Origin: a virus
Strand: one strand, 5' to 3'
DNA length: 64,000 nucleotides
IMG/VR virus record: IMGVR_UViG_3300010151_000007
Location: 36,327-100,326 of that record
The notes under the pieces were generated by a model. That model searched no databases. It worked only from the letters and a program-made list of their open reading frames with translations, and was not told where the DNA came from. The translations under genes were made by a program, and so were the position numbers. This document shows, piece by piece, positions 2,645 through 52,351 of this stretch (position 1 is the stretch's first letter; the number at the start of each line of letters is the position of its first letter).

Positions 2645-2704
2645 ATGTGTAATGATTGCAAACAAGAGAAACGATTGTTTTATAGGTCAGATAAGAATGA
2701 ATAA
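2645..2704 (+). pseudogene. Zinc-ribbon-like 19-codon scrap
   Basis: An ATG directly after the neuB stop, 7 bases behind GAGAGGAT, opens a 19-residue frame beginning MCNDCKQEKRLFYRSDKNE. The CxxC-x-EK-x-x-FYRSDK pattern is that of the first half of small phage zinc-ribbon proteins, which normally carry a second CxxC some 15 residues later. Here a TAA intervenes. It may be a decayed gene or a leader peptide; its stop overlaps the probable cupin start. Confidence 0.3.
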
Positions 2705-36626: not shown

Positions 36627-37946
36627 ATGTCACTTTACAAGTTTGACAAAAACGATATCCTTCGAAATGTAATCAAGACTCACCCACAAAGTGAGTTTTT
36701 CATTTATAACTCGAAGATTTACATAAATAATGAAATGAATATCAGTGGGGCGTTCACTGGTTCTCAATTTGGTGCCCCAACAGGTTTTGTGAGTCTTTAT
36801 GAATACAATGTTGACCGCAAGGAAACATCAACAGGTCGTGTGATTGGAACGGACGCCGCCCCCGACACTGGTTTGATTTATCCGTTTGTGGTTAAGAATA
36901 GTTCTCACACTTCGTTCAAGACAATGACTGACGAGGAATATGCTTCGAAGCCGTATGGTAGTTATCTATCGGGTAGTTATCGCCTGACTTCTTCCATTCG
37001 ACGAAAGTATTTTCCAGCTAATCACTTAACTTCTTTGGGTGCTCAAAATGCATCAAAATTTATTGAAAACACTTCACTAGCCTCTCTGGCAGAACACGCT
37101 TTCAATATCAAGGGCACAATATCAGGTTCAGAGATATCGGCTTTAAAACAAACTCTTAACTTCTACACGAGGTTAAGCCCACATTATGCCTATTCTTCTT
37201 CGTTTGGCGATAAGAGTTTGCAGGTTGTAAACCTAATTTCAATTCCATCGATTGTATACGGCTCTTCAATTAAGAAAGGCACGGTGGATTTGAGGTTTTA
37301 TATCACTGGTACTTTAGTAGGGAGACTTCAGGACACAAGACAGAACGGAGAGTTGATAGAAACCACGGGCTCTAGTGTTGATTCTATTGCTGGCGTCGTA
37401 CTTTACAACGAAGGATTTCTGCTATTAACTGGAAGTTGGAACATGGGTTCAACAAGTAACTCAATCGACTTCATTGGGAATAACGTTTCAGGCGATAAAT
37501 CTCAAGCCAAATGGATCTACTTTGGTGTTGGCGCTCAAGACAGCACGGCGTCCGCCGACAATGGTGGTTCATTAGCGCCCTCTAGGGCTTCTGCTAGCTG
37601 TCTGACGACGTTCCAGGGTACCCACTATGTCCCGACCCTCACCATGTTCGCACACGCCAAGAAGGGGCATCTGAACCACTCTAACAACCCCACCTATATT
37701 AAGTATGGGCAAAATACCACATTTACCAGTGGCACCTACTTTTTCAAGGAACCGGAGTTGGATATTAAGAATATCGTGAGTTCCTCTTACTCGACGGTCA
37801 CCGCAAGTTTCGCGAAGCATACATATATTTCACAAGTCGGAATCTATGATGAACAGAAAAGACTAATTGCGGTTGCAAATGTTTCTAAACCGGTTAAGAA
37901 GACAGAGGAAAGAGATTTTACTTTTAAGTTGAAGATCGATTTATGA
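36627..37946 (+). CDS. Structural protein B of a paralogous pair (439 aa)
   Basis: A 439-aa paralogue of the preceding protein, 21 bases downstream, behind AAGGAGTTCG. The N-terminus differs (FDKNDILRNVIKTHPQSEFF), but the middle and C-terminal modules correspond. Bases 37550-37700 are visibly richer in G+C than the flanks, as if that segment (after NGGSLAPSRASASCLTT) had been exchanged. It ends in the overlap ATGATGA with the ParB-like gene. Adhesion or tail-fibre attachment is a guess. Confidence 0.6.
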   Translation: MSLYKFDKNDILRNVIKTHPQSEFFIYNSKIYINNEMNISGAFTGSQFGAPTGFVSLYEYNVDRKETSTGRVIGTDAAPDTGLIYPFVVKNSSHTSFKTMTDEEYASKPYGSYLSGSYRLTSSIRRKYFPANHLTSLGAQNASKFIENTSLASLAEHAFNIKGTISGSEISALKQTLNFYTRLSPHYAYSSSFGDKSLQVVNLISIPSIVYGSSIKKGTVDLRFYITGTLVGRLQDTRQNGELIETTGSSVDSIAGVVLYNEGFLLLTGSWNMGSTSNSIDFIGNNVSGDKSQAKWIYFGVGAQDSTASADNGGSLAPSRASASCLTTFQGTHYVPTLTMFAHAKKGHLNHSNNPTYIKYGQNTTFTSGTYFFKEPELDIKNIVSSSYSTVTASFAKHTYISQVGIYDEQKRLIAVANVSKPVKKTEERDFTFKLKIDL

Positions 37947-38404
37947 TGAAAAAGATGCTGAATGAATGGAAACAGTATTTGCGAGAAGAGGAAGAGGATT
38001 GGAAGCCCTCTGGGGAGGAAATGATGTTCCCTGCGAAGTTTCTATTTTCCCATATGGGGGAATACAGAACAGAACAAAGGTGGAAAGACTTTGCGAAGCT
38101 TTCAGGCGAGGAGAAAATGAAGTGGGCTCGGTCGGTAAAACTCGACGAACCTGTTGAGATTACTGTTTTCTCTGATGGTACTTTCGGCCACGGCGATGGA
38201 CATCATCGGGTTATGGCGGCGAAAATCTTGGATGTTGAAATACCCATTGTCATATCCAGAAACAAATTGAAAGACCGCGACCCCGAGTTGTGGACAGTTT
38301 GGCTCAACTCCGTCAGACAAGGAAAACACCCAAAAGAGTTAAATCCCGAAGGATATATTGTTCGCAGTTTGGAACAGTTTAGGCGCATGGAAAAGGAGCG
38401 TTAA
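37943..38404 (+). CDS. ParB-like nuclease-fold protein with capsid-targeting-like leader
   Basis: A 153-aa protein. Residues about 55-115 hold the ParB/sulfiredoxin-fold signature: EPVEITVFSDGTFGHGDGHH, then RVMAAKILDVEIPIVI, where DGHHR-x-x-A-A is the nucleotide-binding motif. If the second ATG (37946) is used, the start MKKMLNEWKQYLREE has Leu12-x-Glu14, aligning exactly with the shared leader of four other small proteins here. It may bind or cut DNA or bind CTP. Whether it is packaged in the head is a testable inference. The start overlaps the previous stop. Confidence 0.65.
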   Translation: MMKKMLNEWKQYLREEEEDWKPSGEEMMFPAKFLFSHMGEYRTEQRWKDFAKLSGEEKMKWARSVKLDEPVEITVFSDGTFGHGDGHHRVMAAKILDVEIPIVISRNKLKDRDPELWTVWLNSVRQGKHPKELNPEGYIVRSLEQFRRMEKER

Positions 38405-38407
38405 AGT

Positions 38408-38932
38408 ATGATCTTAGGGCTTGACATAAGTACAAGTATAACTGGGTACACCGTGATGGACGGTAAAGGAGCTATCGTCGAAAATGGTGCCTGGGATATG
38501 CGCAACAAAAGATATTTTGATGATCTCATGGACAAAGCCAAGTTTATTAAAGAGCAGTTAAAAGAGTTGTCGGTAACTTATTCAATAAAAGAAATCTACA
38601 TTGAGAAGTCTTTACAGTCTTTCAGATCTGGATTCTCTTCTGCAAAAACATTGTCAACGCTTTCCAGCTTCAACGGAATCGTGAGTTGGATGTGCTATGA
38701 GGAATATGGGATGAAGGCCGAGTACATCGCCGCCACCACTGCCCGCAAATTATGCGGCATCAGGATTCCCAAAGGTCAAAAAGCGAAACAAGTTGTTTTG
38801 CAGTATTTACTTGACAACGAGCCCTCTTTCGTGATAAGTTATACAAGAGCGGGAAATCCTAAACCCGACTCTTACGATCGTGCTGACAGCATAGTGATCG
38901 CAAAAGCAGGGTTATGCAAGAAGAAAAACTAA
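38408..38932 (+). CDS. RuvC-like RNase H-fold nuclease
   Basis: A 174-aa protein with the RuvC fold: MILGLDISTSITGYTV supplies the first Asp (D6), IYIEKSL the Glu (E66), and SYDRADSIVIA the last acidic pair (D157 and D160). Four acidic residues in this order mark metal-dependent Holliday junction or branch-cutting nucleases. In T4-type phages that role is filled by gp49, which is unrelated in fold, so a RuvC-like enzyme would be a functional substitute. It sits next to the primase gene, overlapping it by 19 bases. Confidence 0.75.
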   Translation: MILGLDISTSITGYTVMDGKGAIVENGAWDMRNKRYFDDLMDKAKFIKEQLKELSVTYSIKEIYIEKSLQSFRSGFSSAKTLSTLSSFNGIVSWMCYEEYGMKAEYIAATTARKLCGIRIPKGQKAKQVVLQYLLDNEPSFVISYTRAGNPKPDSYDRADSIVIAKAGLCKKKN

Positions 38933-39843
38933 AGATACTTAAAAACGTATTAGGGAATTTTTATCACAGCGGGCAGGAATGTTTATTTCACTGTCCGTTT
39001 TGTGATCATAGGAAAAAGAAACTTTCAATTAACCTGAAGAAATCAGTGTTTAAGTGCTGGACGTGTGGCGTCAGCGGCAAGAATCTTGGTTTCTTGGTTC
39101 GAAAGTTTGGCAACACTGACCAGAAAGTAGAATGGGGGAGATATGATCAGCATGTTGATTTGCTTGATTTTGATAATCTTTTTGGAGATACTGAAACGCT
39201 GGAAGCCAGAATAGTAAGACTCCCCGAAGAGTTTGTGAGTTTGGCGAATTTAAACGTCTCCTTATCGGCCCGAATGGCGCGGAAATATCTTTTCTCAAGA
39301 GGTCTGACTAAAGCAGACATTCTAAAATGGAAAATAGGATATGCTCCAAGCGGCGAGTATGCTGGTAGGATCATTGTACCTTCGTTCGATATCGAAGGAA
39401 AATTAAACTTCTTCGTATCGAGAACATACACAAAGCAATACCCGACTTACATGATTCCGGACGCAAGCAAAGACGTGATTTTCAACGAATTAACGATTGA
39501 TTGGGAACGGGACATCACAATTGTGGAAGGGGTTTTTGATGCGATAAAAGCTGACAACTCGATCCCCCTGCTTGGATCCTCGCTTAAAAAAGAGAGTTAC
39601 ATATTGGAAAAGATTGCAGAGCACAAAAGCAACGTGTTCCTTGCTCTCGATCGCGATGCTCAAAAGAAGGCGCAAAGAATGATAAGACTATTTAATCTAT
39701 ATGGAATAGAAGTATCACAACTGGAACTGGGAAAGTACGACGACGTCGGCGAAATGTCCAAAGAGGAATTCCAGGGATTCAAGAATTCATCACAAATCAT
39801 GGATTTTGAAAACTACTTAATTAGTAAGATTGGAGCACTATAG
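38914..39843 (+). CDS. DNA primase (zinc ribbon plus TOPRIM)
   Basis: A 309-aa DnaG-type primase. The N-terminal zinc ribbon is HCPFCDHRKKK with C27/C30, and FKCWTCGVSGK with C48/C51. The TOPRIM core shows ITIVEGVFDAIKAD (E205) and NVFLALDRDAQKKA (the DxD pair). It should lay RNA primers for lagging-strand synthesis, the role of gp61 in T4, although it looks closer to compact DnaG forms. The chain ends ENYLISKIGAL, with an ACTACTTA motif inside its last codons. Confidence 0.85.
   Translation: MQEEKLKILKNVLGNFYHSGQECLFHCPFCDHRKKKLSINLKKSVFKCWTCGVSGKNLGFLVRKFGNTDQKVEWGRYDQHVDLLDFDNLFGDTETLEARIVRLPEEFVSLANLNVSLSARMARKYLFSRGLTKADILKWKIGYAPSGEYAGRIIVPSFDIEGKLNFFVSRTYTKQYPTYMIPDASKDVIFNELTIDWERDITIVEGVFDAIKADNSIPLLGSSLKKESYILEKIAEHKSNVFLALDRDAQKKAQRMIRLFNLYGIEVSQLELGKYDDVGEMSKEEFQGFKNSSQIMDFENYLISKIGAL
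39812..39819 (+). promoter_or_regulatory. Possible late promoter variant ACTACTTA before the 39845 gene
   Basis: This variant motif lies in the last codons of the primase gene, 33 bases before ATG 39845. It is followed by AATTAGTAAG, which holds the reverse complement of ACTAATTA. It is weaker than the intergenic copies. Confidence 0.25.
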
Positions 39844-39844
39844 A

Positions 39845-40144
39845 ATGAAAATAACTAAAGAGAAACTATTAACCATCATTCGTGAAGAAAAAGCAATCCT
39901 TGATCGGGAAGAAAAAGGCTTGTTAAACGAATCGACTTTAAACGAAGTAGATGTAGCAGATATGGACACTCTGGAAAAGTTGATGATTGTTGGTCGCGGG
40001 GTTTACAAGATGGTTGCGACATTGGGACTTCCAACGGCTTACGCAGTTTTCATGGTCTATGCTTTGGAAAGGGCAACAGGTAAGAGAATCCTCAATGATA
40101 AAGAGAGAGAGGAGCTTAAAGAAGAGAGTGAGGGTCAATTATGA
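39845..40144 (+). CDS. Small membrane-associated protein with MKITKxxL leader
   Basis: A 99-aa protein. A TTG at 39830 is in frame, but ATG 39845 gives the start MKITKEKLLTIIREE, matching the leader shared by several small proteins here (Ile12-x-Glu14-Glu15). Residues about 48-75 (MIVGRGVYKMVATLGLPTAYAVFMVYAL) could form one membrane helix or a buried helix pair. The C-terminus is charged. If the leader is cut by the prohead protease, the mature chain would begin at Glu15. Function unknown. Confidence 0.65.
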   Translation: MKITKEKLLTIIREEKAILDREEKGLLNESTLNEVDVADMDTLEKLMIVGRGVYKMVATLGLPTAYAVFMVYALERATGKRILNDKEREELKEESEGQL

Positions 40145-40548
40145 AAATTAGCAAGACAACCCTAGAAGATTTAATTAAAGAAGAGTTTGATTCCCAATAT
40201 TCAAAAAGTTCTAAATTGCAGAAACGCTTTGAAATACAGGTGGGGAAACTGCTGGACAGAATTCATTCAATCGGAACACGGTACGCGGATTCTTTAACAT
40301 CCAAATTTTCAGGCACTCGCGTTAAAATCGATACTCGTAAAACAGATTATTTGCGTAAACTTCACGATCGCGCTCATTCCGCTACGGTTACCTGGGAAGG
40401 AACTATCGAGAAGATTGACTTCGATATTGAACAGATGCACGATGCTACGGAGATCGTTCTTTTTGCGACTGTCGTTTTAGATGAAATCCACGCCCAAGCT
40501 TTGGGAATGAATAAGATCGCCGTTGATACTAGGGGACTAAGCTTGTGA
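40141..40548 (+). CDS. Small basic protein with MKISKxxL leader, unknown
   Basis: A 135-aa protein starting MKISKTTLEDLIKEEFDS, with Ile12-Lys-Glu14-Glu15 as in its neighbours. The body is a Lys/Arg-rich helical region (KSSKLQKRFEIQVGKLLDRI) followed by mixed strands (SATVTWEGTIEKIDFDIEQM). It overlaps the previous stop by four bases. Its pI looks basic, fitting a DNA-associated internal head protein, but no family was recognised. Confidence 0.65.
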   Translation: MKISKTTLEDLIKEEFDSQYSKSSKLQKRFEIQVGKLLDRIHSIGTRYADSLTSKFSGTRVKIDTRKTDYLRKLHDRAHSATVTWEGTIEKIDFDIEQMHDATEIVLFATVVLDEIHAQALGMNKIAVDTRGLSL

Positions 40549-40736
40549 AGTTTAAGAAAGCAGATATAAAAAAGATCATTAAAGAAGAATTCCGAACAAT
40601 TCTCCGAGAAGACAAACAAGCAGATACTTATCGCATGGCCGAAGTAATGGATGAATTATCTTCTATTATTGAACGATGGGACGAATCCCACCCTTATACA
40701 ATTGAAATCAGACGAATCATTGAATTGTGGTCGTGA
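40545..40736 (+). CDS. 63-aa protein with MKFKKADI leader, unknown
   Basis: A GTG start overlaps the stop of the preceding gene (GTGA). The product begins MKFKKADIKKIIKEEF and repeats a second Ile-Leu-Arg-Glu site (RTILRED) soon after. The remainder is one amphipathic helix and an acidic tail. Together with the two preceding genes it forms a run of three tandem genes with the same N-terminal leader. Function unknown. Confidence 0.6.
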   Translation: MKFKKADIKKIIKEEFRTILREDKQADTYRMAEVMDELSSIIERWDESHPYTIEIRRIIELWS

Positions 40737-40737
40737 C

Positions 40738-40766
40738 TTGCCAAGATGGTGTGAACGTGTTACATT
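40738..40766 (+). promoter_or_regulatory. Possible sigma70-type promoter before the 40773 gene
   Basis: TTGCCA at 40738-40743 and TACATT at 40761-40766 are 17 bases apart in one of the few real gaps of this region. Each hexamer differs from consensus by one and two bases. Transcription would start near the ATG at 40773, giving a leaderless or nearly leaderless message. Confidence 0.25.
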
Positions 40767-40772
40767 ATATAG

Positions 40773-40967
40773 ATGAAAGAGATCAAGGAGGGGGCACTCT
40801 GCACGGTTAGGTTCGTGGAGGGTGGTCTCTATACAGAAGAAATAGGCGTCGTAATGGCTGAATTGAAGAGGGTTAGACCTTTCGATGAAAGTCGATACGA
40901 TGTTTTCGTGGTTAGGCTAAAGAAAAATATGAAGTTCCCACGTCGTTATTTACATATGATGGAGTAA
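40773..40967 (+). CDS. 64-aa small protein, possibly an SH3-like fold, unknown
   Basis: A 64-aa protein: EGALCTVRFVEGGLYTEEIG, then VVMAELKRV and YDVFVVRLKKNMKF look like four or five short strands of a small barrel. The ATG at 40773 has no ribosome site upstream; AAGGAGGGGG lies inside the frame at 40788-40797, so either the message is leaderless or translation begins further in. Its stop overlaps the start of the SbcCD-like gene, suggesting coupling. Confidence 0.5.
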   Translation: MKEIKEGALCTVRFVEGGLYTEEIGVVMAELKRVRPFDESRYDVFVVRLKKNMKFPRRYLHMME

Positions 40968-43900
40968 TGTTGAAGCTAGCACACCTAAGTGACACCCATA
41001 TCCGGAATTACAAATATCACAAAGAATATAGAATGATATTTGACCAAATATACAATATTTTGAGGGAAGAAGAGCCCGATTATATCGTCCATTGTGGCGA
41101 TTTGGCACACACAAAGACTCAATTATCACCAGAATACTTCGATTTAGCGGCGGATCTCCTTCGAAAGTTGGCAGATATAGCGCCTTTGATCATCATTCCG
41201 GGTAATCATGATGGCAATTTGAAGAATGGTCATCGCCAAGATGCCATTACACCGATCGTTTCCGCATTGGAGCATGACAATATCCACTTCCAGAAGAAAT
41301 CGGGTGAATATTCGCCTGATGGTATTATTTCTTTTAATGTGTTGTCGGTGTTTGATGAAGAGAATTGGAAGAAGCCGAGTGATCCGAGCAAGATTAACAT
41401 CGCCCTGTATCATGGAGCCATTTCTGGTGTCAAAACTGACATCGGCTATATTATGGAACATGGTGATCACCCTGTCGACATCTTCGCCGATCATGATTTT
41501 GCATTTTTGGGGGACATTCACAAGACAAATCAGATTGTTGACACTGAAGGGAAATGTAGATATCCCGGTTCGACTGTGCAACAGAACTTTGGCGAGACTA
41601 ACGACAAGGGGTTGTTGATTTGGGAGATCAAGACAAAAGAAGATTTTACATGCCGCCACATCGCCGTGTCGAATCCGAAACCATTTGTTTCAATCCCGTT
41701 GACACCGAAGGGACGCCTGCCTCGTAAGCTGTCAATCCCACTCGGAGCGAGAATAAGAATAGTCTCGGAAACAAACACCTCTCTTGATGTAATCAAACGT
41801 GCTGTTGATGTTGTTAAACATAAGTTCAAGCCAGAAAGCGTGGCCTATCTAAATCGAGCTTCAAATCGAGTAGACGTTTCCAAAAGCATTTCAGATGTTG
41901 AGCACTTGAATCTTCGCGATGCAGCAGTTCAAGAGAAATTGATTCGCGAATACTTGGGCGATTATGAGGTCGAAGAGAACTTGATTGCCGAAGTCCTCGA
42001 ATTGAACAGGAAATATGCCAAAATTGCCGAGGAAGGTGAGGAGATTTCTAGAAATATCAATTGGGAAATTAATGATCTAGAATGGGACACTCTTTTTAAT
42101 TATGGGGAAGGCAATGCACTGGACTTCACGAAATTGAACGGCATCGTTGGATTGTTTGGAAAGAACTTTTCGGGTAAATCCAGTGTTGTTGACAGCCTTC
42201 TATACACCCTCTTCAACACGACGTCGAAGAACGAAAGAAAGAACTTGAATGTAATTAATCAAGCCCACGACGAAGGCTCTGGTACGGTCTCCATTTCCGT
42301 TGGGAACGAAAGATATTACATATCTCGTCAGTCAGCTAAATACACAAAGAAGCTCAAAGGGGAAACAACCCTGGAGGCAAAGACTGAATTAGAATTTTAC
42401 AAGATTGATGAGAACGGCGAGGTTGTAAGTTTGAATGGTCTGACGAGGAATGATACTGACAAGAATATTCGTAAAATGTTTGGCTCAAGTGAGGACTTCA
42501 TGTACACAAGTATGTCGACTCAATTGGATAGTCTCGCATTCATTCGGGAAGGTTCTACTAAAAGGAAAGAGATTCTTGCCAAATTCTTAGATTTGGAGAT
42601 CTTCGAAAAGAAGTTCAGATTGTCCAAAGAAGATTCGGTCGACATTCGCGGCGCTTTAAAAAGGTTAGAAGATCGAGATTATGATGAAGAGATAAACGAA
42701 GTCGAAGAAGAGATTCTTAAAAAAGCTTCCGCTCTAGAACATCAAGAGGGTCTTTGTGCAGAACACAAGACACTTCTGGAAGAACTGTCAAATGAGTTGA
42801 GTATCGTGGAACAGAAGATCAATAATGCTCCAACGAAGATTATTGACATTCATTCGATTCGTACTCAAATCAAAGATTCAGAGATAAGTGTATCCTCTAT
42901 GAAAGACCAAAACAGAACTTTTGAGCAGGAAATAGAAGATTCAGAAGAAATACTCCTGAAGGCTAAAAAGTCTATTTCTGAAATCGATCACGAAGAGATG
43001 TATAGGAAGGTTGAGATCCTTGATGCAAGGGGGGACGCTTTTGATACGTTGCGAGATTCGATTATTGAACTGGAAGAGCGCCTTGAAAGAAAGAAAAAGA
43101 AGAAGAAAATTCTTTCCCAAGTGCCTTGTGGGGATAAGTTTCCAACCTGTAAATTCATCCGTGATGCGGTGGTGGCTGAAACTCACATCCCAGATATCAA
43201 AAAATCTATTCACACAAAGACTCTAGAAATGCGCGAACTAGCTGTTGAGCTTTTTAGTGAGGAGCAGCCGCGCCTCAAGGTAGAACAATACGAGGCATTG
43301 GTGAATATCGAGACCAAAGAAGAAAAGACTTTGAGTGAAACAAGGTTGGGTGTTGAAAGAAACATATCAAAAATCCTTCAGCTAAATTCCGTTCTCAAAG
43401 GTTTGAAGACAGAAGAACAGGAATATGAAGTAAACAAAGAAGTGATTGAGAATTACGAAGCCTTAGTTATGAAGAAAGAGTTTCTTTCAAATCAGACTGA
43501 ACAATGTCAAGACAATTTGGAAAACTGTGATAAAGAGATTTTGAAACTTCATCGCGAAGGTGGTTCGCTATCACAGAAACTTGAAAACCTTAAAGAATTG
43601 AAGAAAGAGTATCATACACTCCAGACTGAATTTGCTGCCTATGATTTGTTCATGCGTTGCATGCATAGTAATGGAATTGCATACGATATCATTAAAAAGA
43701 ATCTGCCAATCTTGAATCAAGAGATCGCGAAGATTCTTGCTAACTTGACCGACTTTGAAGTCTTCTTTGAGGAGAATGGCAATCGTTTGGACATCTTTAT
43801 TAAACATCCAAAATATGAACCAAGAGCTTTATCTATGGCGTCTGGTGCTGAAAAGACAATGGCAGCTATGGCAATTCGTTTAGCCTTGTTGACTGTCTCA

Positions 43901-44110: not shown

Positions 44111-44117
44111 TTACTGT
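44104..44117. repeat. Perfect 14-bp palindrome ACAGTAATTACTGT
   Basis: The palindrome covers the stop codon of the Mre11-Rad50 gene and lies just before the GGAGG ribosome site of the next gene. It could be a protein-binding operator or a small hairpin that hides the ribosome site. It lacks a U tract, so it is not a terminator. Confidence 0.6.
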
Positions 44118-44135
44118 ATGGGAGGTTTTATCCTT

Positions 44136-44354: not shown

Positions 44355-44357
44355 ACA

Positions 44358-44771: not shown

Positions 44772-45210
44772 AGAGTTGCTGATAGTTGCTACATTGATGT
44801 TCCCAACGGCAGCGTATGGCCAAGACTATAGGGTATTTGAGCAGGGTGAAGAAGCTCCGGAAAAAGGGTTTTTCTTCAGTGAGGATTCGTTTGCTAATTT
44901 ACTGGCAAAAATACAAGCAGATAAAGAGACCGCTCTTTCTTTGCAGGAAACAGAGCTTGGCTTTAAACATCATCTTGAGACGCTCGATCTAAAAGAGCAG
45001 GTTGAACTTACAACTTTGCGTTTAGACATTCAGGTTGAAAGAAGTAATGAGATTCTTGCAATCAAACAAGAACATCTTGAGAGATTGGAGGAACTAGCTT
45101 TAAAGAGACGCCCTGATTGGGTTGTGCCTGTTGCGGTTATCGGAACCGCCTTGGCAACTGCCGGTTTGAGCGTTGGTGTTGCTTATGCTGTGTCAGACGC
45201 GGTTAAATAA
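44749..45210 (+). CDS. Exported coiled-coil protein with C-terminal membrane helix
   Basis: About 150 aa. Either TTG 44749 (six bases after GGAGG) or ATG 44758 starts it. A signal peptide is clear (KELLIVATLMFPTAAYGQ, cleavage likely after AYG), without a lipobox cysteine. Residues 45-125 form a coiled coil, and residues about 130-150 a membrane helix (WVVPVAVIGTALATAGLSVG). It may partner the preceding coiled-coil protein across the envelope, but the absence of a lipoylated cysteine separates it from classic o-spanins. Confidence 0.55.
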   Translation: MVFMKSIKELLIVATLMFPTAAYGQDYRVFEQGEEAPEKGFFFSEDSFANLLAKIQADKETALSLQETELGFKHHLETLDLKEQVELTTLRLDIQVERSNEILAIKQEHLERLEELALKRRPDWVVPVAVIGTALATAGLSVGVAYAVSDAVK

Positions 45211-45608
45211 TGGGCACCTACGGAACTAACAATACTCATAATATTGCACGCCTTGAGCACGCAATTCAAGAGAAGTATGGGCCTGATGCCATAAAGACTC
45301 CAACTTCAGAATGGGGCGAAGAGAAAGAGAAGAAGTTTTTAGAACAATCTAAAACTCTAAACAAGAAGCTTCAAAAATCTATGGAGAAGGATGAACGCCA
45401 AGAGACAGACGGCGTTTTAATTTCGAAAAAACTACTTAGTAGAGAAGCTGAAGAGAGAATTTGCCCGGTTTGCAATAAATATTCTTTTGACACGAAAGAC
45501 AGCGTTTATATGAACAAGTTTGAGTGTTGCAGGATGTGTTATATCCAATGGGTAGAGGATCGAGAAAAACGCTGGAAATCTGGCTGGCGGCCAAGTAAAG
45601 AGGAATAA
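45210..45608 (+). CDS. Zinc-finger-containing protein, unknown
   Basis: A 132-aa protein with a charged helical N-terminal half and a C-terminal zinc-binding module: RICPVCNKYSF, then FECCRMCYIQWVEDRE gives CxxC and CCxxC. The last residues (KRWKSGWRPSKEE) are basic and aromatic. It stands upstream of the terminase gene, where T4 has gp16, but it does not look like gp16. DNA or protein binding is likely; the function is unknown. Confidence 0.6.
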   Translation: MGTYGTNNTHNIARLEHAIQEKYGPDAIKTPTSEWGEEKEKKFLEQSKTLNKKLQKSMEKDERQETDGVLISKKLLSREAEERICPVCNKYSFDTKDSVYMNKFECCRMCYIQWVEDREKRWKSGWRPSKEE

Positions 45609-45614
45609 AACAAA

Positions 45615-46142
45615 ATGTCAACTTTAGATATTATTAGAGGAATCGCACAAGCTGCTGCTAACGCATATGACGGCGCGCTTGACGACAAAGGCGAGAAATT
45701 AGAAATCGGACTCAAGAGAGACGAGGGTCATGCAATTTTGGACTCCCGTGTTATTGATGGGTTTGTTGTTTCTTTTCATGGAAATATGCTTTGCTTGAAA
45801 TACCAAGCAGAATGCAAGATTTCCGAAGTCCACAAGCCTGGGTTTGAAGACGATGTTAATCAGCGTCTTGCAAGCATTGTCAAGTTCCTTAAAAAAGAAT
45901 ACAAGAAGATTACTAGCGACAGTCTTAGTTTGAAGATGGAAGATGAGCCTGTGATTAATGTTCAATACATTTCCAGAGTCCGTACAGATATTCAAGCACA
46001 CTGTTTTTATGTAATCGGAAATATTGATAGCGAGCCGATCAAGGGTGAATCCCGCGATTCAATCGAATCAAGCTTTAAGAGTTTTGTCGAACAGGGTGGT
46101 TGGGGCGGCAAGAAAGCTCCAAACGATACTAGAAAAGGCTGA
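45615..46142 (+). CDS. Conserved-looking protein before the terminase, unknown
   Basis: A 175-aa alpha/beta protein. Strands such as VIDGFVVSFHGNMLCLKYQA and PVINVQYISRVRTDIQAHCF alternate with helices (VNQRLASIVKFLKKEYKKI). A Gly/Trp-rich patch (EQGGWGGKKAP) ends it. The stop overlaps the terminase start, so the two are co-translated. I do not recognise the family; a structural or packaging accessory is possible. Confidence 0.6.
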   Translation: MSTLDIIRGIAQAAANAYDGALDDKGEKLEIGLKRDEGHAILDSRVIDGFVVSFHGNMLCLKYQAECKISEVHKPGFEDDVNQRLASIVKFLKKEYKKITSDSLSLKMEDEPVINVQYISRVRTDIQAHCFYVIGNIDSEPIKGESRDSIESSFKSFVEQGGWGGKKAPNDTRKG

Positions 46143-47728
46143 TGGCAAGACTAACTAAAAAACAAACAGCCCACGAGCTAATGAAGTGCGGTAAAGATCC
46201 CGCCTACTTCATCAAGAACTATGTGAGGATTTCCCACCCAACTCGTGGTGTCATTCCTTTTAACTTATTCCCGTTTCAGGAAGATGTTATTCATGAGTTT
46301 GGTAATCATCGTTTCAATATTGCGCTGAAGGCACGCCAGCTTGGCCTGTCCACCACAGTCGCAGGGTATGCCCTGTGGATGCTTTTGTTTTATAGAGACA
46401 AAAACATTCTGGTTGTCGCCACAAAGCGAGATACTGCCGGTAACTTGTTGAAGAAAGTTCGCCAAATGTATGACCGCCTTCCAAAGTGGATGAAGATTTC
46501 AGATATTGCAATCGATAACAGGTATGAATTCAGATTAAAGAATGGCTCTGAAATGAAGGCATCAGCAAGCTCTAGTGACGCCGGACGTTCCGAAGCACTC
46601 TCGATGCTCATCGTGGACGAAGCGGCCCACGTAGACGGCCTAGATGACCTGTGGGCTGCTCTTTATCCTACCTTGTCGACTGGTGGGCGTTGTATCGCCC
46701 TTTCCACTCCGAATGGCGTTGGCAACTGGTTTCACAGGAATTATACGTCCGCCGAAAACGGCGTAAACGTTTTCAACCCAATCAAACTACTTTGGAATAT
46801 CCACCCAGAACGTGATCAATCTTGGTTCGAAAACGAAACCAGAAACATGCCCCCTCGCCAGATTGCACAAGAGCTTGAATGCTCCTTCAATGCTTCTGGC
46901 GATACTGTTATCAGTCCGAAAGATATTGCACATTTGTTTGAAATGACCAAAGAACCAGAATACAAAACCGGCTTTGATCACAATTTATGGATTTGGGAAA
47001 ACAGAATAGAAGAGTTTACTTACTTCATATGTGCCGACGTTGCGAGAGGTGATGGAAATGATAGTTCCGTTTTCCACGTTGTCAAAGCAGAAAAGATGGA
47101 AATTGTTGCAGAGTATCAAGGCAAACCTTCTTTGAGTGATTTCTCACACTTGCTGGCGAGCACCGGCAAAGAATATGGTAACTGCCTACTTGTGGTTGAG
47201 GTTAACAATCTTGGTATTTCTGTCATCGAAAAGCTGCAAGAATTAGAATACCCAAACATGTATTATGCGGCCAAGTCGACTCACGAATATGTTGAAAGCC
47301 ATATGGCGGCTCACACAAGTAATGTAGTTCCAGGTTTTACTACATCATCCAAGACGCGCCCGCTGATTATCGCAAAGATGGAAGAATTCATTAGAAACCG
47401 AATGGTGAAATCCTATTCATCTAGGTTTGTCGATGAAATCAAGACATTCATTTGGCAAAACGGAAAACCACAAGCAATGCGCTCATATCACGACGATTTG
47501 ATCATGGCTTTTGCAATTGCGTGCTGGGTCCGCGATACGGCAATCACTGTCAACAAAACTGAAATAGAATACCAGAAAGCAATGGTTATGTCTATTGGTC
47601 GAACTGAAAGAAAAATACACACTACGATTCCTGGCCAGACCGGTCACATCTATCGTGGTGGTGTTTCTGAAAAGGCGTATGCCGAAAGAGAAAAGTATCG
47701 TAAATTCATTTGGTTACTGAAGGGTTAA
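46142..47728 (+). CDS. 17: Terminase large subunit, gp17-like
   Basis: A 528-aa packaging motor. The ATPase shows a Walker A variant ARQLGLSTT (residues 64-72) and Walker B MLIVDEAAH (D159, E160); STPNGVGNWFH is the coupling region. The C-terminal nuclease is RNase H-like: ICADVARGDGNDSS (D299), LLVVEVNNLG, then YHDDLIMAFAIACW. It cuts concatemers and pumps DNA into the prohead through the portal. It is shorter than T4 gp17 (610 aa). The portal gene follows 5 bases later. Confidence 0.93.
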   Translation: MARLTKKQTAHELMKCGKDPAYFIKNYVRISHPTRGVIPFNLFPFQEDVIHEFGNHRFNIALKARQLGLSTTVAGYALWMLLFYRDKNILVVATKRDTAGNLLKKVRQMYDRLPKWMKISDIAIDNRYEFRLKNGSEMKASASSSDAGRSEALSMLIVDEAAHVDGLDDLWAALYPTLSTGGRCIALSTPNGVGNWFHRNYTSAENGVNVFNPIKLLWNIHPERDQSWFENETRNMPPRQIAQELECSFNASGDTVISPKDIAHLFEMTKEPEYKTGFDHNLWIWENRIEEFTYFICADVARGDGNDSSVFHVVKAEKMEIVAEYQGKPSLSDFSHLLASTGKEYGNCLLVVEVNNLGISVIEKLQELEYPNMYYAAKSTHEYVESHMAAHTSNVVPGFTTSSKTRPLIIAKMEEFIRNRMVKSYSSRFVDEIKTFIWQNGKPQAMRSYHDDLIMAFAIACWVRDTAITVNKTEIEYQKAMVMSIGRTERKIHTTIPGQTGHIYRGGVSEKAYAEREKYRKFIWLLKG

Positions 47729-47733
47729 TATAA

Positions 47734-49707
47734 ATGGCAAGAGGAAGAAATACGAGAAATCCAAGGTCAGAGCTATACAAACAACTTACAAGGTTGTTCT
47801 CTGGTCCCATGGTCAACAGGAGAAGTCAAACTGGTCGCCGTTTACGTCGTCACCAATTAGACAAGTTTGCATCACGTTTCCGTTCTGCAAGTGGGCAGCA
47901 GTTTACTCGTTCTACATATTTCCCATTCCAGAACATGCAGCACTCAATGATCAACAACCATAGCCGTGCAGAACGGTATACTGATTTTGATCAAATGGAG
48001 TACACACCAGAGATTGCGTCTGCCTTGGATATTTATGCAGACGAAATGACAACCCACTCTTCATTGCAACCAATGCTTAATGTCAAGTGTTCAAACGAAG
48101 AGATTAAAGCTGTCTTATATTCCCTGTACCACAACATCATGAACGTTGAGCATAACTTATTCGGCTGGTGTCGAACAATGTGTAAGTATGGTGACTTCTT
48201 TTTGTATTTGGATATCGAAGAAAACAAGGGGATCATCAAAACTATTGGCCTTCCTTCACACGAAGTCGAAAGAATAGAAGGCGAGGACAAAGAAAATCCG
48301 AACTATATTCAGTTCCAATGGAATTCAGGCGGCCTGACGCTTGAGAATTGGCAGTTAGCTCATTTTCGTATTTTAGGAAATGACAAATATGTCCCTTATG
48401 GTTCCTCTGTTCTGGAAGCGTCTCGTCGTATCTGGAGACAGCTAACGCTTCTTGAGGACGCAATGATGGCTTATCGTATCGTTCGCTCGCCTGAAAGAAG
48501 AGTTTTCTATATTGATGTTGGCTCTATTGCTCCTGCTGAAGTTGAGCAGTACATGCAAAAAGTTATCACTCAAATGAAAAGAGGATCCATTGTTGATGAA
48601 CAAACTGGCCGAGTTGACTTGCGCTACAACCCTCTTGGTGTAGAAGAAGATTTCTACATTCCAGTTAGAGGCGACACTAGTTCAAAAATTGAAACACTCC
48701 CCGGCGGCTCATTTACTGGTGATATCGATGACGTTGAATACTTGAGGGACAAGTTGTTCTCTGCTCTGAAGATTCCTGCTTCTTACATTTCAAGAGGCGC
48801 TGGCGCAGAAGAGGACAAAACAACATTAGCTCAAAAGGATATCCGTTTCGCAAGAACGATCCAAAGACTTCAAAGGGCGGTCGTTTCAGAGTTGGAAAAG
48901 ATTGGCATCATTCACCTCTATACAATGGGTTTCAAGGGCGATGATTTACTATCATTCAAATTGAGTTTGAATAACCCATCGAAGATTGCAGAACTCCAAG
49001 AGTTGGAACACTGGAACACTAAGTTCGATGTTGCAGCAGCAGCAACAGAAGGATTCTTCTCTAGAAGATGGGTTGCAGAACACTTGTTTAATATGTCTAA
49101 TGAAGAGTTCTTACGCAACCAGAGAGAGCTATTCTATGATCGTAAGTTCGATGCCAACTTGGCAGCCGTCGCAGAAATGGAACAAGAGAGTGCGGCAGGC
49201 GGCCTTGGCGGCCTTGGTGGTATGGGAGGTGGCGCTGGCGATATCGGTGATATCGGCGACCTTGGTGATTTAGGGGACGAATTAGGGCTTGGCTCCGGTG
49301 CTGGTGACGCCCCCGACCTAGACGTGGGCGGTGATGATGATAGCGTTCTTTTGGCGACACCCGATGACGAAGGTCCGTTACAGGAAGCGGAGCCCAACGA
49401 AGGCGACGAGTATACACGCCCCGGCTGGAAAGGTAAGACTCACAAAAAGACGAAAGGAAATCCAGGTTCGAAAGCAAGGAAGAAGAACTACAAAGCTGCG
49501 TATTCTCGTGAAAAAGCCTCTCCCACTAGAAGGAACACTCACCACGGATATAACGAATTGAATTCCTTGGTTCAAGGGCTTTATGAAGGTCGGACAGCTA
49601 ATTATATTATTGATGAAGAAGAAGGTGAGATTTTGAATGCCCAATCGGACTTCAATAGATTAATCGAAGGGATGGAGAAGTTCAATTCAACGGAGAACCA
49701 AGAATGA
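47734..49707 (+). CDS. 20: Portal vertex protein, gp20-like, with Gly/Asp linker and basic tail
   Basis: A 657-aa portal. Family landmarks are SMINNHSRAERYTDFDQMEY, IASALDIYADEMTTHSSL, RRVFYIDVGSIAPAEVEQYM, ETLPGGSFTGDIDDVEYLRD, KLFSALKIPASYI and TLAQKDIRFARTIQRLQ. T4 gp20 is 524 aa. The extra length is a C-terminal extension: a Gly/Asp/Leu-rich run (GGLGGLGGMGGGAGDIGDIG and more, bases 49200-49330), then a basic segment (GKTHKKTKGNPGSKARKKN), then a short folded end. The dodecamer forms the DNA gate and starts prohead assembly. Confidence 0.93.
   Translation: MARGRNTRNPRSELYKQLTRLFSGPMVNRRSQTGRRLRRHQLDKFASRFRSASGQQFTRSTYFPFQNMQHSMINNHSRAERYTDFDQMEYTPEIASALDIYADEMTTHSSLQPMLNVKCSNEEIKAVLYSLYHNIMNVEHNLFGWCRTMCKYGDFFLYLDIEENKGIIKTIGLPSHEVERIEGEDKENPNYIQFQWNSGGLTLENWQLAHFRILGNDKYVPYGSSVLEASRRIWRQLTLLEDAMMAYRIVRSPERRVFYIDVGSIAPAEVEQYMQKVITQMKRGSIVDEQTGRVDLRYNPLGVEEDFYIPVRGDTSSKIETLPGGSFTGDIDDVEYLRDKLFSALKIPASYISRGAGAEEDKTTLAQKDIRFARTIQRLQRAVVSELEKIGIIHLYTMGFKGDDLLSFKLSLNNPSKIAELQELEHWNTKFDVAAAATEGFFSRRWVAEHLFNMSNEEFLRNQRELFYDRKFDANLAAVAEMEQESAAGGLGGLGGMGGGAGDIGDIGDLGDLGDELGLGSGAGDAPDLDVGGDDDSVLLATPDDEGPLQEAEPNEGDEYTRPGWKGKTHKKTKGNPGSKARKKNYKAAYSREKASPTRRNTHHGYNELNSLVQGLYEGRTANYIIDEEEGEILNAQSDFNRLIEGMEKFNSTENQE
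49195..49335 (+). repeat. Low-complexity Gly/Asp coding repeat in the portal gene
   Basis: Short repeats of GGT/GGC with GAT, ATC and CTT encode tandem GGLGG and GDIGD/GDLGD units. It is a flexible acidic linker and a likely site of repeat-length change. Confidence 0.7.
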
Positions 49708-50531
49708 AGCTTAAGCATAATAAAAAAAGAAATACCGCTTTTTTGTTTGAAGCGTTGATTCGCGAAATGGCCAAGACGGTTCTTTCCGAAAAGAAGGACG
49801 TGCGCGAGAAGATTAAAACAATCTTGAAAGAGCATTTTAAGAAAGGCTCCCTTCTGCATACAGAGCTTGGGCTTTATAAAACCATTTATGAAACCAGGGG
49901 CGCAGATCTCTACACAGCCGAAAGACTTGTACAAGAAGTTCAGAAATCTCACGGTGCAATGAGTAAAAAGGATTTGTTCAACGAACAGTCTGTCTTGATA
50001 AACGAAATCAACAAAACAGTAACTGCTGAAGTTTATAACAACTTTGTCCCAAGTTATAAAGGTTTGGCAACAATTAATCAACTCTTTCAAGAGGGGTTGA
50101 AGCCAAAACAAAGGGTCGCTCTGGAAAGAAAACTGATTCGGTCTATGATCACTAGAGACAACTCGTCACACGAGCTTCAAGAAATGGCCCACACCGATAG
50201 TTTGGTTTATAACTCGTTTGTCAAAAGATTCAACGAGACATACGACACCTCACTTCTTTCTGAACAGAAAGAGTTGTTGAACAAGTACATCATGTCTGTC
50301 GGGGATAATGGATTGCAATTTAAGGTTTACTTGAATTCTCAAATCGGAACCTTGAAAGAAAGGGTAGAAGAAGCGTTCTCTTTGGAAGAAATCAAGGACA
50401 GTGAAATCCTCCAAGAACGTTTGGGACAAGTAAGAGACAGATTGGATTCTTTTTCGACGAAGAGAATTGATTCTGAAATGATAGAGAATGTTCTGAAGAT
50501 TCAGAATCTTGTTAAGGAACTATACGACTGA
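49704..50531 (+). CDS. Helical protein in the head operon, unknown
   Basis: A 275-aa, nearly all-helical protein starting MKLKHNKKRNTAFLFEALIR. It has long charged helices (KKDVREKIKTILKEHFKKG and SLEEIKDSEILQERLGQVRD). Its start overlaps the portal stop by four bases. It stands between portal and prohead protease, where T4 has core proteins gp67/gp68; those are much shorter. A prohead-core role is possible but unsupported by motif. Confidence 0.6.
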   Translation: MKLKHNKKRNTAFLFEALIREMAKTVLSEKKDVREKIKTILKEHFKKGSLLHTELGLYKTIYETRGADLYTAERLVQEVQKSHGAMSKKDLFNEQSVLINEINKTVTAEVYNNFVPSYKGLATINQLFQEGLKPKQRVALERKLIRSMITRDNSSHELQEMAHTDSLVYNSFVKRFNETYDTSLLSEQKELLNKYIMSVGDNGLQFKVYLNSQIGTLKERVEEAFSLEEIKDSEILQERLGQVRDRLDSFSTKRIDSEMIENVLKIQNLVKELYD

Positions 50532-51088
50532 TGGCAATCAATATTCATGTTGGTGATTCGCCGCCACCCGAAGAGGTGGAGCAGATTGAACAGAAGCCAA
50601 TTGCAAAAATACAACTCAAAATAAGAAAGACTCTCGACGGCGATATCATGATCTTCGATCATGCAGACATCGATATTGTGGTTATGCCTGAAAAGATGAA
50701 GCTTATAGCTTTTGCGAAAGACGTGACAAGTGAATTTGTATATGGAGCCGAAAATAGAATGTTTCAGTTTCTTAGCAAAAAAGGTATTATCGATCCAGCC
50801 ACGGTTCAAGGCGGAAACATATATGGTTCTATAGAAGGTATGATAAGAACGTCTGATGAATTGCATCCGATTAAAATACTACTTCTCAATATCTCAAAGT
50901 TCATTGACGAAGAGCGTCCATATTTTGAGTTCGTTGAAGACTATGAAGAAATGCAGACCGACCGCTTCGTTGATCCTGATGCAGAGGAGTCGACGGAACT
51001 CGGCGAAGTTCCACATAAGAAACAGAAAGGTCACTTGCGTCCCGGTGGTGGAGCAAATGGTACTTACTGGCAATCATATACATATTGA
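50531..51088 (+). CDS. Head-operon protein with acidic linker, unknown
   Basis: A 185-aa protein. Residues 1-140 appear folded (AKIQLKIRKTLDGDIMIFDH, IDIVVMPEKMKLIAFAKDV). The end is a linker and then HKKQKGHLRPGGGANGTYWQ, a basic and Gly-rich tail. Its start overlaps the preceding stop by one base. No family was recognised; co-expression with capsid genes suggests an assembly or structural task. Confidence 0.58.
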   Translation: MAINIHVGDSPPPEEVEQIEQKPIAKIQLKIRKTLDGDIMIFDHADIDIVVMPEKMKLIAFAKDVTSEFVYGAENRMFQFLSKKGIIDPATVQGGNIYGSIEGMIRTSDELHPIKILLLNISKFIDEERPYFEFVEDYEEMQTDRFVDPDAEESTELGEVPHKKQKGHLRPGGGANGTYWQSYTY

Positions 51089-51113
51089 GAAATAGAAATG
51101 AAAAAACTACCGG

Positions 51114-51473
51114 ATGGTAAGCATTGAGGTATTTGTGGATTTAATTTGGTTCATTCTGTCGTCAACAGGCTTGACAACACTTCTCGTATATGCTACAATT
51201 TTTGACCCTATCCGCCCATCGAAAGAATGGTTGAATGGATGGGGTCATTTATTTCACTGCCCCTTATGTTTAGGTTTTTGGGCAGGTATATTTATGTTTG
51301 CCGTTAACCCTTGGACGGAACTATTTACTTTTGACTACACTGTCACAAACAGTTTGATATGTGGCTGTGTTAGTTCTTTGAGTGCGTATGCATTCAATGT
51401 TATGCTGGGAGACGAAGGTTTAAACATGGTACTTAAAGGAGGTGATCATGACAACTTTAATTCAAACAGTTAG
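51114..51473 (+). CDS. Small membrane protein, DUF1360-like
   Basis: A 119-aa protein with two or three membrane helices (VDLIWFILSSTGLTTLLVYA, LGFWAGIFMFAV, SLICGCVSSLSAYAFNVML). The loop HLFHCPLCLGFWAG is the CPxC-x-x-FW hallmark of the DUF1360 family, found in phages and Gram-positive bacteria with unknown function. The GTA/ATG start has no strong ribosome site, and a 9-codon frame (51098-51127) overlaps it. It lies inside the head operon, which is unusual for a membrane protein. Confidence 0.62.
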   Translation: MVSIEVFVDLIWFILSSTGLTTLLVYATIFDPIRPSKEWLNGWGHLFHCPLCLGFWAGIFMFAVNPWTELFTFDYTVTNSLICGCVSSLSAYAFNVMLGDEGLNMVLKGGDHDNFNSNS

Positions 51474-51516
51474 ATGGGGCTTAATGCCCGTTCGTAGATG
51501 CTGCAAAGGTTCGTAA
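51448..51516 (+). CDS. 22-codon micro-protein with perfect Shine-Dalgarno
   Basis: AAAGGAGGTGATC at 51435-51447 is the longest anti-16S match seen in the window, and it ends directly at ATG 51448. The frame encodes MTTLIQTVRWGLMP then VRRCCKGS and stops at TAA 51514-51516. The peptide is basic, with a hydrophobic start and a CC pair. It overlaps the end of the membrane gene in another frame. The strength of the ribosome site argues for real translation, or for a coupling leader for the protease gene 17 bases later. Confidence 0.5.
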   Translation: MTTLIQTVRWGLMPVRRCCKGS

Positions 51517-51533
51517 CTTAGAGGTAACTTTTA

Positions 51534-52136
51534 ATGTCAGGAAAAGTATTATTACGTGAATTTTATGCTCTGTGCGACGGCGGCGTGTGTCAGGACTATT
51601 TGACTGAATCTGAAAAGATGGAAATGTCGAATGGAACTGGCTTTTACATGACCGGTGTTATGCAAAGAGCAGATCTGAAAAATGGGAACGGTAGAGTGTA
51701 TCCGAGAAAAGTTCTAGAACGTGAAATCGAAAACTATAAAAGGTTAGTAGAAGAACGTAGAGCTTTGGGAGAACTAGACCATCCAGACGATCCCGTTATC
51801 AATTTACGCAATACTTCTCATCTTGTCACCAAAATTTGGTGGGAAGGAAACGACGTTAAAGGTAAGGTGAAAGTCCTTAACACTCCTTCGGGTAAAGTGT
51901 TACAAGAGCTTGCCAAGTCTGGTGTTACATTAGGAATATCTTCACGGGGCTTAGGCTCCACAAGTCAGGGGCACAATGGTCTGATGGTGGAAGATGATTT
52001 CCAATTAATTTGTTTTGACTTTGTATCCGAACCTTCTACTCCCGGCGCTTTCATGATGAAAGAAGTAAAAGATGGATACCCAATTGAAAAGTCTGATCGT
52101 ATTTTCCGTGCACTCAATGAGGTAATCAAGAAGTGA
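51534..52136 (+). CDS. 21: Prohead maturation protease, gp21-like
   Basis: A 200-aa serine protease of the T4 gp21 (herpesvirus assemblin-like) fold. H83 in GELDHPDDP and S136/S137 in LGISSRGLGS sit almost exactly where T4 gp21 has His85 and Ser140. FYMTGVMQRADLKNGNGRVY and FVSEPSTPGAFM are further landmarks. It should cut scaffold, capsid and internal proteins after (Ile/Leu)-x-Glu, then degrade itself. Likely targets in this window are the scaffold, the capsid protein (after Glu62) and the small MKITK-leader proteins. Confidence 0.9.
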   Translation: MSGKVLLREFYALCDGGVCQDYLTESEKMEMSNGTGFYMTGVMQRADLKNGNGRVYPRKVLEREIENYKRLVEERRALGELDHPDDPVINLRNTSHLVTKIWWEGNDVKGKVKVLNTPSGKVLQELAKSGVTLGISSRGLGSTSQGHNGLMVEDDFQLICFDFVSEPSTPGAFMMKEVKDGYPIEKSDRIFRALNEVIKK

Positions 52137-52351
52137 AAATTACAAAAGAGAAATTGAAGAAAGTGATTTTAGAGGCATACAATACTCAAATGACTCATTC
52201 AGATGCATCTGATTTGAAAGATGTGGCCAGAGCGATCAAAAGAGTTTTGGAAAGCGAGAACTTGTCCCCTCAAGGCCAAGAGGATATGACAATAGCTTTC
52301 GAAATGATTAAAAGAGTGTTGAACAGTGCACATTATGCTAGGACAAGATAA
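52133..52351 (+). CDS. 72-aa protein with MKITKEKL leader ending in a gp21-type site
   Basis: A GTG start overlaps the protease stop (GTGA), giving MKITKEKLKKVILEAYNTQ, where I12-L13-E14 before Ala15 is the best T4-type cleavage site of the leader group. The mature part is two amphipathic helices (DLKDVARAIKRVLESEN and MTIAFEMIKRVLNSAH). Being encoded right behind the protease favours a prohead-core or internal-protein role. Family not recognised. Confidence 0.65.
   Translation: MKITKEKLKKVILEAYNTQMTHSDASDLKDVARAIKRVLESENLSPQGQEDMTIAFEMIKRVLNSAHYARTR

Follow-up and report, generated by a model that had tools for sequence, protein, structure and literature searches.

For most phage proteins no function is known, and only for a few phages is it known which proteins enter the host together with the DNA. 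In phage T4, packaged cargo includes counter-defence proteins and the ADP-ribosyltransferase Alt (PMC9026906, PMC3012670, PMC9391042). In the T4 capsid-targeting sequence (CTS), residues 4 and 7 act in targeting and residues 8 and 10 in processing, and the cleavage motif of the protease gp21 is defined as L/I-x-E (PMC9026906). The prohead proteases of giant phages (SPN3US gp245, phiKZ gp175) also remove N-terminal propeptides at x-x-E, with several cuts each (PMC10052503, PMC9026906), but these are for the most part long (20-254 residues) and specific to one protein, with no common tag, and the phiKZ motif is S/A-x-E as against [LIV]-x-E here. Polyvalent proteins of phages and conjugative elements (ART-PolyVal, DdrB-like ParB) are predicted to be packaged and injected and have effector domains overlapping those found here (ADP-ribosyltransferase, ParB-like) (PMC5512222), but they are large multidomain fusions and not small, separate leader-bearing effectors.

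The window, i.e. the whole 64,000-nucleotide stretch of viral DNA analysed here, encodes proteins most similar in organization to those bearing the CTS of T4 IPII and IPIII (MKTYQEFIAEA): a short N-terminal leader is found on unrelated proteins, it ends in hydrophobic-x-x-hydrophobic-[IL]-x-E with equal spacing, and it occurs with an S77 protease and a gp23 head. No sequence class is in common, however, and the leaders lack sequence similarity to MKTYQEFIAEA. The leaders have 14-16 residues instead of 10 and fall into at least three interchangeable classes, with as many as 19 class I genes in one phage genome versus a handful in T4, and a second site near residue 22 is frequent. Thus the principle is known from T4, while the leader families, their interchangeability and their scale appear to be new.

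We consider it likely that these leaders are T4-type capsid-targeting sequences that direct proteins into the head, are cut by gp21 and serve injection. The analysis shows that the leaders exist, are specific to phages and are swapped, that the bodies are diverse, that the cleavage motif is conserved in head proteins of the same phages, and where the genes lie; binding, cleavage, packaging and injection are inferred, without proteomic or cleavage data. In the proposed mechanism, a short, amphipathic helix at the N-terminus (of class I, II or III) would bind the prohead core during head assembly, the gp22-type scaffold being the likely receptor, and pull an otherwise unrelated protein into the prohead. 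A gp21-type protease would then cut after the Glu of [LIV]-x-E at residue 14 (or 15), often with a second cut at a similar site near residue 22, and the mature protein, freed within the head, would be injected with the DNA. The cargo is predicted to comprise fast-changing host-takeover, counter-defence and cell-wall enzymes together with small core proteins.

Leader proteins of the window

The relevant features of the window are as follows.

37943..38404, + strand: ParB-like protein with a class II leader; weak PHROG profile matches
39845..40144, + strand: class I leader protein, 99 aa; leader MKITKEKLLTIIRE followed by E
40141..40548, + strand: class I leader protein, 135 aa; leader MKISKTTLEDLIKE followed by E; ATGA overlap with the preceding gene
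40545..40736, + strand: class I leader protein, 63 aa, GTG start; leader MKFKKADIKKIIKE followed by E; GTGA overlap
47734..49707, + strand: portal protein, gp20-like, from gene order and relatives
51534..52136, + strand: gp21-type prohead protease (Peptidase_S77); PF03420, E=2e-30, 106 bits against a cut-off of 27
52133..52351, + strand: class I leader protein, 72 aa, GTG start; leader MKITKEKLKKVILE followed by A
52356..52775, + strand: probable prohead-core-type protein, 139 aa; class I-like start MNKKQLKEIMRPLVKE
53717..54817, + strand: gp22-like scaffold, from position and composition; no confident family match
54838..56568, + strand: major capsid protein gp23; PF07068, 8e-75

The N-termini at 39845, 40141, 40545 and 52133 are MKITKEKLLTIIREE, MKISKTTLEDLIKEE, MKFKKADIKKIIKEE (GTG) and MKITKEKLKKVILEA (GTG), respectively. 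The sequence-only reading of the window had ascribed to all four Lys2, Lys5, hydrophobic residues at 8 and 11, Ile12, Glu14 and Glu or Ala at 15, and this held exactly in every case. A scan of every possible start in the 100,326-bp record found exactly these four class I proteins, and in a permutation test of the record's N-termini six pairs scored above the maximum of 20 permutations. The starts at 40141, 40545 and 52133 share four bases with the preceding stop codon (ATGA or GTGA) and have purine-rich stretches upstream.

None of the four proteins matched a Pfam or PHROG family. The body of the 39845 protein has a hydrophobic segment and more L-x-E sites (LLNE, TLNE), that of the 40141 protein had no relative in viral contigs in a body search, and the 40545 protein has a second site, ILRE followed by D. 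The 52133 gene is located between the gp21 and gp22-like genes, its start overlapping the gp21 stop. The 52356 protein also lacked a Pfam or PHROG match, and its prohead-core assignment rests on position only.

The ParB-like protein, read from 37946 (MKKMLNEWKQYLREE), has the Leu12 and Glu14 that had been noted, but the claim that it bears the same leader as the four failed: it carries a parallel class II leader (MKKMLNEWKQYLRE followed by E), and at least three leader classes exist, not one. Its relative in L566 (68% identity) starts with MKLLLEQWRKLISE followed by E. The profile matches were to phrog_26387 (3e-4) and phrog_1033 (1.6e-3), with no Pfam match and no PDB relative found, and an AlphaFold2 model of the ParB-like pair was of low confidence (pLDDT 58). 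Three proteins at the opposite end of the record (positions 74, 451 and 1080) also bear class II leaders. Looser class II relatives were seen at about 1710 and 1997 of the record, outside the window.

Size, conservation and distribution of the leader families

The motif search, a check proposed with the sequence-only reading, revealed large families in viral contigs in addition to the four proteins of the record. The consensus sequences are MKITKSQLKQIIKEEL for class I, MKLLLENWRKFLNEE for class II and MKHLRQYIRQILLTE for class III. Both class I and class II have many matches in viral contigs, and the counts are lower bounds. The 360 class I proteins represent 277 body families, with 2-4 bits of information at most leader positions and near zero past residue 23, and the 199 class II proteins represent 110 body families; the claim that the bodies after the leader are unrelated therefore held across large families. 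Duplication of one ancestral protein was ruled out by this diversity and by the leader swaps described below. Counts at loci fetched with the pattern are partly conditioned on it; those from gp21-fetched loci and partly constrained motifs are unbiased.

One rival explanation is that the common start is a simple helix cap or a coincidence of composition, and in its favour the hydrophobic-x-x-hydrophobic-[LIV]-x-E pattern is present by chance at about 2% of random viral N-termini. Against it, a scan of 257 Gb of bacterial genomes found the class I DNA pattern in only 11 stretches, located on apparently phage-derived MAG contigs, and the reversed class I pattern gave zero matches versus more than 150 forward matches in 32 records. 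This genome-contig scan and the reversed-pattern control leave practically no room for a helix-cap coincidence. Commonness of the start in non-phage proteins, which would have refuted the original proposal, was thus not found. Two of the bacterial genomes with the class I pattern also encode a gp21-type protease, and both leader classes were absent from 120 viral contig stretches drawn by random 14-mer (1.02 Mb).

A second rival places the similarity in the nucleic acid and not in a peptide signal, as a DNA or RNA element such as a shared start of translation, a promoter or a site of recombination, and tandem arrays of leader genes would suit recombination. However, the 22 occurrences of MKITKSQLKQIIKEE are encoded by 20 different DNA sequences, codons differ for 38% of the identical residues within a locus, and homologous bodies bear class I, II or III leaders from unrelated DNA. 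The codon variation of MKITKSQLKQIIKEE shows that leader conservation acts at the protein level, and a nucleic acid element is as good as ruled out.

Among cultured phages, direct scans of T4 and 10 other T4-like records found neither the class I nor the class II pattern, and all 11 records encode gp21. When the leader peptides were searched by tblastn in 50,697 phage records, nothing was returned at E<=10; this was not taken as absence because short lysine-rich peptides are insensitive or masked in such a search. A de novo leader test recovered T4 IPII and IPIII as a positive control. In the same test, the cultured T4-like Flavobacterium phage immuto yielded leaders with the same motif (MKKSQLRQIIKEAL, MENFDLKKFLVEN and MKKQILSEQFRRMQKLAGIITES), one of them on a gene in the portal-gp21 slot, although their sequences differ from the classes found here; in the literature found, they were not described as leaders and no proteomics was reported. 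Several motif matches in T4, HTVC008M and the present record were evidently due to chance.

The [LIV]-x-E motif in leaders and head proteins

Both class I and class II leaders end in [LIV]-x-E, the gp21-type cleavage motif. In 62 class I leaders selected with only residues 2-8 constrained, Glu14 was present in 100% and Ile12 in 92%. With residues 1-11 of class II constrained, [LIVMF]xE was found at 12-14 in 199 of 225 proteins, and in 12 of the 26 exceptions it was moved by exactly one residue, against a background of 2% per position. One class II member without the motif at 12-14 is in the present record (MKKLLNEWKEFASKE). The hydrophobic residues 6 and 3 before the Glu (L8, I11 and E14 in class I; W8, F/Y11 and E14 in class II) give the same register as the T4 CTS (Y4..F7-I8-x-E10). 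A point against gp21 cleavage is that residue 15 of class I is Glu in about 84-92%, whereas residue 63 of gp23, after its site, is mostly Ala. A second [LIVMF]-x-E, starting at residues 17-24, is present in about 57% of class I proteins, so it is uncertain whether residue 14/15, inferred from sequence alone, would be the sole or principal cut.

[LIV]-x-E is likewise conserved where the gp21, gp22-like and gp23 proteins of these phages have their propeptide sites. The gp21-like protease noted earlier at 51534 was confirmed by PF03420, and its N-terminus has a conserved [LI]TE at residues 23-25, with the E in 99% of 110 relatives. In the gp22-like scaffold, LLE occupies residues 42-44 and its Glu is invariant (100%) among 35 relatives, and the gp23 site is QLLQ-E62 followed by T (consensus LL[KR]E followed by A), with L59, L60 and E62 in 100% of 21 sequences. 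The expectation that one phage encodes an S77 protease and a gp23 capsid with the cleavage motif of the leaders held in both the window and the clade.

A third rival is that the leader docks to another phage hub (a chaperonin, the tail, or a replication or membrane site), [LIV]-x-E being part of a binding helix and not a protease site. The leaders do resemble amphipathic helices, proteins are reportedly guided to GroEL by the N-terminus of T4 gp23 (reference cited in PMC10052503), the gp21 link is weaker in class II records, and cell-wall amidase and M23 bodies are among class II. However, a binding helix would not predict that [LIVMF]xE is kept by a one-residue shift, that three unlike leaders have Glu with a hydrophobic residue two positions before it, or that the leaders match the gp21, gp22-like and gp23 sites. 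Hub docking is thus considered unlikely.

Leader exchange, bodies and gene position

In six strict body families, two or three leader classes occur side by side. Since homologous bodies were found with class I, II or III leaders, the leaders are interchangeable between proteins. The bodies include ADP-ribosyltransferase, Nudix, acetyltransferase, SAM lyase, Zeta-toxin, amidase and ParB-like domains, and the effector-type domains begin directly after the leader. The original proposal of a targeting and cleavage signal for head packaging and injection is supported by comparison, i.e. by phage specificity, [LIV]-x-E register, the phages' own head-protein sites, the prohead-core gene slot, swapping and effector domains, with packaging, cleavage and injection themselves inferred.

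Leader proteins might instead be prohead-core proteins degraded or expelled in maturation, like T4 gp67 and gp68, in which case injection would be wrong for most of them. Many class I genes lie in the gp67/gp68 slot, many bodies are short with more L-x-E sites, and the four proteins of the window have no family match. Against this, class II and some class I bodies carry folded enzyme domains, for which a role as fragments of a scaffold would make no sense, and T4 CTS cargo is injected (PMC9391042). As a general explanation this is improbable, but it probably applies to a subset of leader proteins.

If the leaders are head-targeting tags, a 15-residue search finds packaged, probably injected proteins in hundreds of uncultured genomes, among them putative ADP-ribosyltransferases, SAM lyases, acetyltransferases and Zeta-type kinases possibly acting before phage gene expression. 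A phage's injected proteins would then be readable from DNA alone, the T4 CTS would become a general interchangeable code and no longer a single-phage curiosity, and new tags for loading proteins into phage heads would be available. With less confidence, we lean towards a bolder reading, in which a loose N-terminal address code (hydrophobic-x-x-hydrophobic-[LIV]-x-E) is general among T4-like phages. Written in a number of unrelated leader families that are freely swapped, it would bring together up to about 20 different proteins per particle for delivery by the virion, and the leaders would thus mark a large unannotated set of injected effectors.

Gene position links the leaders to head assembly genes. 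gp21 was found in 29 of 34 class I records versus 2 of 39 random control records (P=7e-13), but in only 10 of 22 class II records (seven of the nine larger than 120 kb). This association may partly reflect common ancestry of one clade, because class I and II are lacking in every cultured phage examined, yet all 11 tested encode gp21. All 92 leader genes were on the gp21 strand, with 49 less than 2 kb upstream of gp21, and they often occupy the T4 gp67/gp68 slot next to it; the portal-gp21 interval is the place of class I leader genes in relatives of this phage. Leader genes were also observed in tandem arrays.

Head module and leader genes of the record

The window covers bases 36327-100326 of an uncultured viral record 100,326 bp long. 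Gene order and Pfam matches revealed a T4-type head module in the window (names gp20 to gp23 as in T4):

46142, terminase-like gene
47734, portal-like gene
51534, gp21-type prohead protease (Pfam Peptidase_S77, 2e-30)
53717, gp22-like (scaffold) gene
54838, capsid protein gp23 (8e-75)

The sequence-only reading had reported a common N-terminal leader, here class I, on the proteins starting at 39845, 40141, 40545 and 52133. These four N-termini held as written; when all possible starts of the record were scanned, no further class I protein appeared. Three of the genes, each overlapping the next, lie in a run 11 kb upstream from the protease gene; the start of the fourth overlaps the stop codon of the protease gene. 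The leader of the ParB-like protein (37943/37946) differs from class I, and has equal length and a Leu-x-Glu end at residues 12-14; it belongs to class II. The body of the 39845-40144 protein contains a long hydrophobic stretch (KLMIVGRGVYKMVATLGLPTAYAVFMVYALERA), and membrane insertion is conceivable.

A class II cluster was also observed at the record start, outside the window (record bases 26-4405):

74, class II leader protein, weak ART-PolyVal
451, class II leader protein
1080, class II leader protein
about 1710 and 1997, looser class II forms
3086, possible class II member (MNNKYKQFLNESTYSFDYDSTL), HAD-like

Leader families and their association with the protease gene

A DNA pattern scan found the class I leader in at least 120 stretches of viral contigs, often with 2-5 copies per stretch; class I genes, often arranged in tandem, number as many as 19 in a single phage. 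Class II was first spotted on contigs with the class I pattern, and its own scan showed it to be a large family too; of the long records with class I, about half have class II as well. Neither leader occurred in 1.02 Mb of viral sequence (120 stretches picked by a random 14-mer) or in 39 random viral records, and reversed-pattern controls gave zero matches throughout. Bacterial and archaeal genomes totalling 257 Gb had the class I pattern in 11 stretches, all on MAG contigs; two of these genomes also encode a gp21-type protease, consistent with mis-binned phages as the source. Bacterial-MAG contigs NHDW01000006.1, PBIO01000025.1, DJKT01000043/44.1 and others (loci L205-L213) carry many leader genes and appear to be mis-binned large phages. 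A third class, MKHLRQYIRQILLTE / MKxLRxYIRxILxE, was seen in large phages also bearing class I arrays (loci L205 and L257).

The leader is conserved while the bodies vary: there are 277 body families among 360 class I proteins and 110 among 199 class II proteins. Information content in class I is 2-4 bits at most leader positions and near zero beyond residue 23. In its 22 occurrences MKITKSQLKQIIKEE is encoded by 20 distinct DNA sequences, and therefore the constraint acts on the protein. Pfam domains start at their profile start right behind the leader (DUF192 at residue 28, NUDIX at 29, LigT at 25); the leader is thus an add-on.

The 92 leader genes at gp21-selected loci are without exception on the same strand as gp21. 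Of these, 49 precede gp21 by no more than 2 kb, in the interval occupied in T4 by gp67 and gp68. Among class I records, gp21 was detected in 29 of 34, versus 2 of 39 random records (P=7e-13); among class II records it was detected in 10 of 22 (7 of the 9 above 120 kb). Since the leader phages form one clade, a functional link cannot be concluded from this association by itself.

Presumed cleavage motif and exchange of leaders

T4 gp21 cleaves after L/I-x-E, and T4 IPIII is targeted by residues 4 and 7 and processed by 8 and 10 (PMC9026906). The IPIII pattern Y4..F7-I8-x-E10 is in identical register to class I L8..I11-I12-x-E14 and class II W8..F/Y11-L12-x-E14. Among 62 class I leaders from gp21-selected loci, constrained at residues 2-8 only, Glu14 is invariant and Ile12 is found in 92%. 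Class II leaders constrained at residues 1-11 only have [LIVMF]-x-E at 12-14 in 199 of 225; in 12 of the 26 exceptions it is displaced by one residue (e.g. MKIIMENWDRFILQEA; background 2% per position), so the motif is retained despite the spacing change. Similar sites occur in head proteins of the same clade: LL[KR]E|A in gp23 (both Leu and Glu in 100%, n=21 sequences), [LI]TE at residues 23-25 of gp21 (Glu in 99%, n=110) and LLE at 42-44 of the gp22-like protein (Glu in 100%, n=35). In about 57% of class I proteins another [LIVMF]-x-E follows that begins somewhere in residues 17-24, against 11-17% in control windows, suggesting that class I cleavage may happen there too; propeptides of giant phages are known to be cut more than once (PMC10052503).

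Different leader classes were found on homologous bodies in 40 pairs (E<1e-8), and six mixed body families survive a strict rule whereby the body alignment must begin near both leaders. One such family carries MKLTEAKLKKLINEVLEE (locus L116), MKLIMENWRKYLSEEE (L462) and the class III leader MKHLRQYIRQILLTEAA (L205); L257 holds a class III relative of the record's protein at base 1080 (MKLLLENWRKYITEQ). If the leaders share one job, one would expect to see a leader replaced by another of unrelated sequence on the same body.

The earlier proposal that the leader targets proteins into the head and is cleaved there is supported, by inference from pattern, position, swapping and analogy; neither targeting nor cleavage was measured. 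The principle itself is known: diverse defence proteins of T-even phages have been described with a conserved capsid targeting sequence, or CTS (PMC3012670). The leader families themselves, and interchangeable classes on this scale, are absent from the papers found, and appear to be new.

Domains of the proposed cargo and other T4-like phages

Class II bodies include NUDIX (3), GNAT acetyltransferase (3), ART-PolyVal ADP-ribosyltransferase (2), SAM lyase, Zeta toxin, M23 peptidase, amidase, exonuclease, HNH, LigT and 5'-nucleotidase; class I bodies include pentapeptide repeats, a TseH-like domain, GNAT and ParBc_2. Some of these assignments rest on weak matches, with E values of 1e-3 to 1e-5. 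In the record itself, the class II protein at base 74 is a weak ART-PolyVal protein. T4 packages the ADP-ribosyltransferase Alt and the restriction inhibitor IPI. ART and ParB-type domains have been predicted to be packaged more widely (PMC5512222).

The general motif (hydrophobic-x-x-hydrophobic-[LIV]-x-E) within residues 2-16 was found in 12 of 97 genes of the record versus 25 of 1437 random viral genes (P=1e-6), two of the 12 apparently by chance. When shared N-termini were sought de novo, the positive control, T4 IPII/IPIII, was recovered, and the cultured Flavobacterium phage immuto (MW353176.1; loci L504, L539-L547) proved to have leaders of its own: three N-termini common to unlike proteins (MKKSQLRQIIKEAL, MENFDLKKFLVENKLT and MKKQILSEQFRRMQKLAGIITES), with one leader gene (123311) between portal and gp21.

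The hypothetical T4 protein gp61.1 (54 aa; NC_000866 18966-19130; locus L569) starts MKTFKEFIKED, closely resembling the T4 CTS, and could be an overlooked internal head protein. In Microcystis phage Mel-JY01 (60276-62718; loci L548-L557), adjacent related proteins with possibly ADP-ribosyltransferase-like bodies start MIKLKSLLQEI or MIKLMSLVTET, with spacing equal to that of the T4 sequence.
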